Assembly: GCF_022012475.1 (NCBI RefSeq)
Contig: NZ_JAKLWS010000012.1
Location: 1-64,000 of the forward strand
Source of the DNA: Rhodohalobacter sulfatireducens
Lineage (GTDB): Bacteria; Bacteroidota; Rhodothermia; Balneolales; Balneolaceae
Direction: 5' to 3'
Length of the DNA: 64,000 bases
The stretch's first letter is position 1. The number at the start of each line of letters is the position of its first letter. A program made the position numbers and the translations under genes. Positions 55,281-57,080 of this stretch are shown piece by piece. The notes beneath the pieces are model-generated. The model ran no database searches, was not told where the DNA came from, and saw only the letters and a list, made by a program, of their open reading frames with translations.

Positions 55281-55549
55281 CTCTATATTCTATTTGAAAC
55301 CAGGGCCTGATTTCTCTCATACTACAACCAAAGACAAGGTAGGCAGAAGCCTAGGTTGCAACCCTTCTCTAATATAATCCCAAAAATCTTAAATGCTACA
55401 AAGCTGGAAAATGATTGTAATTTAAAGGGCTGTTTAGTGGCGGGTTGTTGATTTCAATAAGAATTTAAATACGGCAATGGAATTGCTGGGGTTTATTTCA
55501 GGCTTTTTTTTGGACATGGCTTTACCTATGACCTGGGGCAGTTGTCCCA

Positions 55550-56070
55550 TGCTGAGTTGTCCCAGGCTTTCAGCCTGTTCTTTTCTTAGTCCTGTCATTA
55601 TTTCCTGGGGTTGATACCCCAGGTTGTGTTGGCTGAGGCTTTTAGCCTCTGTATTGCCAAACTCAAAGACCAAACTGCAAAAGTAGGTAAGCTGTAAATT
55701 ACTAAGTACTCGGTGTAGAACAACCTTGGGTTAGAATAATTGGAACTAAACCACACTGTTTTCAATATTCCAGGCTTTCAACCTGTTTCAGGATCATTTT
55801 TTTATTTGTTACCTGGAGCTGATGTCTCTGGCTGAGTTGGCCCAGGCTTTCAGCCTGTTTTGGATATGGTTTCACCTGTTACCTGGGGCGTGTGCCCCAG
55901 GCTGAGTTAACCCAGGCTTTCAGCCTGGTTGTATTCTACTCGTTACGTGAGTTCAGCCTTATTGTCCAAAGTAAATAGGCTGAAAGCCTAGTAGAACAAA
56001 GCCGGGGCAACGCCCCGGGTAGGGTGATGTGTAGTAAATATTCAGGCTGAAGGCCTGAAACAGAAAGAGA
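55550..56070. repeat. Left REP palindrome array of RAYT locus 2
   Basis: Palindromes of the type caggctttcagcctg occur at 55561-55577, 55770-55785, 55841-55857, 55911-55928, 55977-55990 and 56043-56058 (the last two are read on the other strand). They are mixed with gaggcttttagcctc (55635-55649), cctggggttgataccccagg (55604-55623) and ccggggcaacgccccggg (56002-56018). The spacing is irregular. Much of this block is repeated to the right of the transposase. Confidence 0.85.
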
Positions 56071-56152
56071 TCACCATTATCACAACAAATTTTGTAAGGG
56101 AATCCCCATTTCAGTCTCATACAATAAAGACTAATTCCATCAAATCATTGTT

Positions 56153-56608
56153 ATGAGTCAATCTTTATCAGCTATTTACATACATGCCACATTTGGGACA
56201 AAGGACCGCAATTATTGGATCAATGAGAAAATCTCAACGAATCTGCACGCATATATGGCGACTATTCTCAAAAATCTCAACTGTCCAGCTCTGATCATTA
56301 ATTCAATGCCGGATCATGTTCATATTCTTTTTCGTATGTCAAAAACAGTAACAATAGCGCAGGTTATAGAAGAGGTCAAAAAGAGTTCATCAAAATGGAT
56401 AAAAAATCAATTATCAGGAACGCCTTCATTCTATTGGCAACGGGGATATGGTGCGTTTTCTGTGAGTTGTTCACACCTGGATGTTGTTACCGAATACATT
56501 GCCCATCAAAATGAGCATCATAAAAAGGTGACTTATAAAGAAGAAATCGAGCGTTTAATGGACAAATATAACGTGAATGAGTACGAACCGGCGTATTATT
56601 GGAGTTGA
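56153..56608 (+). CDS. REP-associated tyrosine transposase (RAYT, Y1 fold)
   Basis: This 151-residue HUH endonuclease has IHATFGTKDRN (about 10-20), the metal-binding pair His55-Val-His57 (DHVHILFR) and the proposed nucleophile Tyr115 in TEYIAHQNEHHKK. The family feature PSFYWQRGYGAFSVS (about 91-105) is present. It is intact with a full-length frame. It differs clearly in sequence from the RAYT at 11881, and its palindromes are unrelated to that locus. It is embedded in the REP field, where it probably acts on the caggctttcagcctg-type hairpins. Confidence 0.9.
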   Translation: MSQSLSAIYIHATFGTKDRNYWINEKISTNLHAYMATILKNLNCPALIINSMPDHVHILFRMSKTVTIAQVIEEVKKSSSKWIKNQLSGTPSFYWQRGYGAFSVSCSHLDVVTEYIAHQNEHHKKVTYKEEIERLMDKYNVNEYEPAYYWS

Positions 56609-56649
56609 TGGTCTTTGAATAACAAATATCAGAGAATTTTGAAACTCAA

Positions 56650-57080
56650 TCTATTCCAGGCTTTCAGCTTGTTCTTTTCTTAGTCCTGCCATTATTTCCT
56701 GGGGTTGATACCCAAGGTTGAGTTGGCTGAGGCTTTTAGCCTCTGTATTGCCAAACTCAAAGACTAAACTACCAAGAAAGATAAGCTGGAAATTTCTAGG
56801 AATTCAGCTCAGGACAGCATTGGGGTAGAATGATTGGAACTAAAACACACTGTTTTCAACATCCCAGGCTTTCAGCCTGGTTGTATTCTACTCGTTACGT
56901 GAGTTCAGCCTTATTGTCCAAACCAATTAGGCTGAAAGCCTATTAGAACAAAGCCCGGGGCAACGCCCCGGGTAGGATGATGTGTGGTAAATATTCAGGC
57001 TGAAGGCCTGAAACAGATGGACAGGGTAATGAACCGAGTGAAAGATTATGAAAATTATCGGTTAGGCTGTAAGCCTGCAA
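56650..57080. repeat. Right REP palindrome array of RAYT locus 2
   Basis: Palindromes at 56655-56671, 56863-56880, 56928-56942, 56996-57010 and 57063-57078 are of the same family as on the left, plus gaggcttttagcctc (56729-56743) and cccggggcaacgccccggg (56954-56972). The stretches 56653-56765 and 56860-57018 repeat 55561-55680 and 55908-56065 almost letter for letter. Confidence 0.85.

Follow-up and report, generated by a model that had tools for sequence, protein, structure and literature searches.

Subclass 1.2 of the TnpA_Y1 transposases is recognised by the signature Y---Q--HH together with WQ and DH[IV]H in proteins of ~148 aa (Quentin et al. 2018, PMC6006769). In that 2018 census the subclass was recorded with 'REP: no' and generally without terminal hairpins (PMC6006769), which is a reported property and not a definition. 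Palindromes bracket the genes of class 2 RAYTs (TnpA_REP) in E. coli, Stenotrophomonas and Pseudomonas, and they also occur dispersed as inverted pairs (REP/REPIN). In IS200/IS605 (IS608, ISDra2; subclass 1.1) the transposase gene forms a cassette with hairpin ends. Finally, Acido-Lenti-1 (Rfam RF01687) has in its source paper no more than an entry as a likely RNA, from Acidobacteria and Lentisphaerae (Weinberg et al. 2010, PMC2864571). A 2026 paper, according to which its function is little known, read it as regulatory beside Tannerella proteases (PMC13298647).

Here, a transposase locus of Rhodohalobacter sulfatireducens was analysed within a window of 64 kb, i.e. the whole stretch of 64,000 nucleotides under study, and compared with these systems. 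The locus and its relatives share with subclass 1.2 the low copy number, diverged paralogues, Bacteroidota hosts and a length of ~150 aa; they differ from the census in having inverted two-hairpin units, mobile cassettes and Planctomycetota as common hosts. The palindrome-bracketed gene, dispersed inverted pairs, diverged single-copy genes and, in Planctomycetota, a GTAG-type foot beside the hairpin recall class 2 RAYTs, whereas the absence of Y---NP, the presence of two hairpins 9-13 nt apart and a foot that is mostly not GTAG outside Planctomycetota do not. As in class 2, the flanking repeats are also dispersed, in the window's own genome mostly inside MITEs. With IS200/IS605 the fold, the catalytic HUH plus Tyr, the cassette of gene and hairpin ends and, as judged in planctomycete relatives, the lack of a visible target duplication are held in common; inverted two-hairpin ends and strongly diverged copies within a genome set the present locus apart. 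By sequence comparison, the locus is best read, with a probability of roughly 0.7, as a REPtron-like (RAYT-like) or IS200-like element of subclass 1.2 whose cognate DNA would be a two-hairpin repeat.

The transposase gene and its palindrome field

The gene tnpA (56153-56608, + strand) is intact and encodes a single-tyrosine (Y1) HUH transposase of 151 aa which matches Y1_Tnp (PF01797) with an E value of 7e-26. The protein passes the cut-off of the NCBI model for IS200 TnpA (NF033573; 61.7 bits, cut-off 55) and does not reach that of the NCBI model for REP-associated transposases (REP_Tyr_transpos; 31.9 bits, cut-off 80). Its motifs are DHVH, YWQ and YIAHQNEHH; the latter corresponds to Y---Q--HH and stands in place of the Y---NP motif of class 2 RAYTs, which is absent. 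By motifs the protein is a TnpA_Y1 of subclass 1.2. The name RAYT, which the gene was given in the preliminary description, is therefore only partly right, since the protein departs from the classical RAYT type. Y---Q--HH was found in 112 of the 119 loci collected, and residues K17, H55, H57, W95, Q96, Y115, Q119, H122 and H123 are invariant in 48 aligned relatives. The fold predicted by AF2 (pLDDT 92.5) has its best Foldseek matches in the PDB with TnpA of ISDra2 and IS608 (E ~1e-8) and resembles the E. coli REP transposase (4er8) less. No tnpB was seen at the window locus, and a PADLOC search for a role in anti-phage defence gave no match.

The genome (5.10 Mb, 138 contigs) carries ten diverged Y1 genes. 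In the nearest relative compared (G027), the syntenic site between a gene for 253 aa and menE has diverged and contains neither the palindrome field nor tnpA. The paralogue on contig C72 is syntenic with an intact gene of G027 bearing the same kind of hairpins. A second Y1 gene in the window ('locus 1', L018; 11893-12297) has EHAH in place of DHVH and inverted flanks of 57 nt (89%), and the covariance model R1 described below found no unit there.

Around tnpA, 13 distinct sites spanning 55564-57076 match AGGCTTTCAGCCT with at most 2 mismatches, in line with the initial count of at least eleven palindromes around an intact gene. The 64-kb window contains 17 such matches in total compared with 1.3 +/- 1.1 in shuffles, and the palindrome AGGCTNNNAGCCT occurs in 42 places of the genome (2 for the reversed control). 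The sequence confirms the palindrome field as well as the direct repeat around the intact gene. Genomes with a tnpA of at least 50% identity contain the 13-mer palindrome in 7 of 8 cases; since it is also present in 13 of the 84 others, its association with tnpA is good but not exclusive, and in some genomes (G076) it occurs without a close tnpA.

Two-hairpin units at subclass 1.2 genes

The unit at work is a module of two hairpins at fixed spacing rather than one palindrome, caggctttcagcctg. The initial suggestion that mixed palindrome types form a composite unit is borne out. The order within the unit is hairpin A' (15 nt; 6-bp stem with a 3-nt loop), a linker of 9-13 nt, and hairpin B' (19-20 nt; 8-bp stem). 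The linker often ends in NNAG. In Planctomycetota these bases are GTAG; elsewhere they are mostly NCAG or NTAG, the window's clade having NCAG. In 117 loci, hairpins with GC-rich stems number 6.3 per kb up to 100 nt away from the gene compared with 0.7-0.8 per kb beyond 1 kb, and the spacing of neighbouring hairpins peaks sharply at 10-12 nt.

Seven full units were found in the window with R1. Proximal to the gene are an upstream unit at 55976-56019 (+ strand; 38.8 bits), which folds as two hairpins, and an inverted downstream unit at 56699-56743 (- strand; 36.6 bits). Further units on the - strand lie at 55533-55577 (31.3 bits), 55605-55649 (45.2 bits), 55813-55857 (23.3 bits) and 55882-55927 (45.5 bits), and another one on the + strand at 56928-56972 (53.4 bits) in the right-hand repeat block. 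In addition, palindrome matches on the + strand reveal extra A hairpins in the interval between upstream unit and gene (56043-56057; right-side counterparts at 56996-57010 and 57063-57077) and in that between gene and downstream unit (56657-56671; further copies at 55771-55785 and 56865-56879).

As R1 was built from units picked for good hairpins, the covariation of paired positions is partly circular and was down-weighted as independent evidence. In 54 loci left out of model building, R1 matches numbered 3.5 per kb up to 150 nt away from the gene, 0.08 per kb at 1-2 kb and 0.01 per kb at distances above 2 kb. Upstream of these genes 24 units were oriented '+' and 6 '-', downstream 30 '-' and 11 '+'; a unit of the expected orientation is present on a given side in only about half of the loci. 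No match was obtained in 104 kb of control menE loci. Inverted R1 units bracket subclass 1.2 genes in at least seven phyla (phyla as given in record titles), which is at variance with the property 'no REP' of the census. Places chosen genome-wide by the unit alone contained three Y1 genes outside the query set, each within a unit pair; most of the other places had units without a gene. At one locus (L163), a Y1 gene with units is surrounded by a cluster of tRNA genes (five tRNA matches in 6.4 kb).

Mobile cassettes, dispersed pairs and the RNA family RF01687

Sequence comparison supports mobility of the unit-gene-unit cassette in planctomycete relatives. In two planctomycete genomes (L133 and L135) it is 88.8% identical over 688 bp, with the identity beginning and stopping at the outer hairpins, while the flanks are unrelated and the sites different. 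No target duplication was visible there, as judged by comparison of the flanks. Three relatives have no cassette at the site syntenic with that in Lacipirellula limnantheis, and one of them (G104) has its cassette elsewhere. Two paralogous cassettes on a Phycisphaerae contig (L102 and L103) are 94.5% identical. Paralogues were compared by strict-gap alignment, as a loose-gap version extended into unrelated flanks. In L103, at -469 to -231 relative to tnpA, a third cassette copy was observed from which the frame is cleanly deleted so that the start codon almost abuts the 3' untranslated region.

Units also occur in pairs that lack the gene. All 16 dispersed places fetched from Pirellulaceae contain units, mostly as inverted pairs, and none contains a Y1 gene (0/16); the pairs end at the outer A hairpins. 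Dispersed pairs without the gene are likewise present in R. baltica, and further Balneolaceae have them too. In Planctomycetes bacterium TBK1r, whose chromosome has dozens of R1 matches, dispersed copies of a unit pair of ~350 bp (L299-L302, L305) carry GGTATCTACACA inverted repeats at their ends.

On the strand opposite to R1, RF01687 matches two of the window units, 55882-55927 with 33.7 bits (E 2.6e-5) and 56928-56972 with 28.1 bits, both below the gathering score of 37. Five matches in the tnpA loci that were searched reach this score, among them those at a paralogue of the window gene on contig C83 (L010; 37.1 bits), in Phycisphaerae (38.1 bits) and at a unit in an Ignavibacteriales locus. 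Positions of RF01687 and R1 matches coincide in 15 of 17 cases (15 sources), and the units have the same B-linker-A structure as the Rfam family. The best match (49.3 bits; L103:1004-1049) is located at a distance of 2 kb from the gene; since R1 missed it, the family of units extends beyond what R1 describes. Given the Rfam entry as a small RNA, these matches could mark the unit as a structured non-coding RNA which merely lies near transposase genes and perhaps regulates them. We regard this as unlikely, because the units form inverted pairs around the gene as well as in dispersed copies, and because a mobile cassette begins and ends with them; a transposase substrate would account for array, pairs and dispersal together. 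On this sequence evidence, Acido-Lenti-1 is probably DNA cut by subclass 1.2 transposases and not RNA: what is a candidate RNA in Rfam is proposed here to be a substrate of the transposase.

Within the genome of the window itself, a MITE harbours most of the dispersed palindromes; it has terminal inverted repeats of ~20 bp (CATANCTGTCCAAAACGTTTT) and 9-bp target duplications, and a pair in another genome (L273/L274 in G007) also has ends of the MITE type. Copies of this family were seen on contigs C43, C55, C57, C60, C90, C94 and others of the window's genome (G000; L210-L221); most of them carry the two-hairpin pair, which is missing from L212 (154 bp) and L225. Because the palindromes are carried by the MITE, their spread in this genome is no evidence for activity of the transposase, and own-genome dispersal was rejected as proof of spread by this enzyme. 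The palindrome-free copy L212 was likewise set aside as proof of scarless excision, since slippage between repeats of 3 bp yields the same junction. On the MITE observations, the whole array might also be read as no more than what MITEs with terminal inverted repeats left behind, next to a transposase that is an unrelated passenger. This reading was already weakened by the held-out loci, where tnpA is bracketed by units in other phyla. It is very improbable considering further that most dispersed places in other genomes are without the MITE terminal repeats and that the Pirellulaceae copies stop at the A hairpins.

Insertion sequences can carry terminator-like hairpins, and hairpins are present on both sides of the gene, as would be expected if they were ordinary terminators insulating it from outside transcription. 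A T-run on either side accompanies only 36 of the 248 hairpins within 200 nt, however, and neither the fixed two-hairpin spacing with its conserved linker end nor the gene-less dispersed copies fit such a function, which we consider a shade less probable still than a MITE relic.

Direct repeats and a possible route to them

The preliminary description listed direct repeats on both sides of the gene, and their boundaries agree to within a few bases with those determined here (all on the + strand). Block 1 extends further than had been listed, over 207 nt (55562-55768 and 56656-56862; 87% identity), and what had been called a sub-block is part of it. Block 2 (55911-56064 and 56863-57017; 95-97%) consists of a first part of 91 nt (55911-56001 and 56863-56953; 96%) and a second of 63 nt (56002-56064 and 56955-57017; 97%). 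The right side had further been described as the left minus one segment. In the alignment of the two flanks, the sole segment of the left one without a counterpart is 55769-55910 (142 nt), which includes the unit at 55813-55857 and has palindrome copies at both ends (55772 and 55914).

Of 94 loci, 42 have strong direct repeats across the gene, whereas 108 control windows of equal geometry have none; this recurrence indicates that the arrangement in the window is a habit of the family. Inverted repeats across the gene occur in 24 of the 94 loci. In the same genome, Y1 paralogues with other palindromes (L012, L013, L015) also have direct-repeat flanks (136-254 nt, 87-94%).

Several contigs of the assembly (C22, C46, C56, C70 and C75 of G000) end inside repeats of the same palindromes, which suggests that these probably break the assembly, but an artefactual duplication is hardly credible at the window locus because the left and right copies differ at ~33 positions and by the 142-nt indel, the repeat lies well within a contig of 123 kb, and the same architecture occurs in independent genomes.

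In the proposed REPtron-like or IS200-like element the gene is bounded upstream by one unit and downstream by another in inverted orientation. The following course of events may be envisaged. The transposase would recognise the folded single strand of the unit and cut beside it through Tyr115, the AG foot possibly acting as a guide, and unit-gene-unit or unit-unit DNA would move via single strands. Owing to the inverted orientation of upstream and downstream units, joining of the ends of an excised cassette would give the order '-,+', and this order is seen in dispersed pairs of Balneolaceae. The window gene sits between two tandem copies of the unit pair. The most likely origin of the direct repeat is recombination or duplication between copies: a circle of unit-gene-unit DNA, for instance, might recombine with a resident pair; a single crossover would then produce pair-gene-pair, as in the window. 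The 142-nt difference may stem from recombination or slippage between palindrome copies. The initial proposal, insertion of the gene into a large direct repeat or joint copying of the two, agrees with this evidence, the repeat itself being real.

In its broadest form, the proposal states that a widespread Y1 class thought to be without REPs has a two-hairpin REP system of its own, that Acido-Lenti-1 is its DNA substrate, and that circles recombining with resident pairs leave genes between direct repeats; we give this combined statement about even odds. If it is true, a field based mainly on Proteobacteria would gain a REP/transposase system that spans at least seven phyla. The census would need correcting where it gives subclass 1.2 as free of REPs; an earlier description of these ends in papers outside open access is possible. 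An Rfam RNA that is still interpreted as regulatory would receive a testable explanation at the DNA level. Finally, the planctomycete cassettes, both full and gene-less, would offer a natural system for studying how REPs spread.
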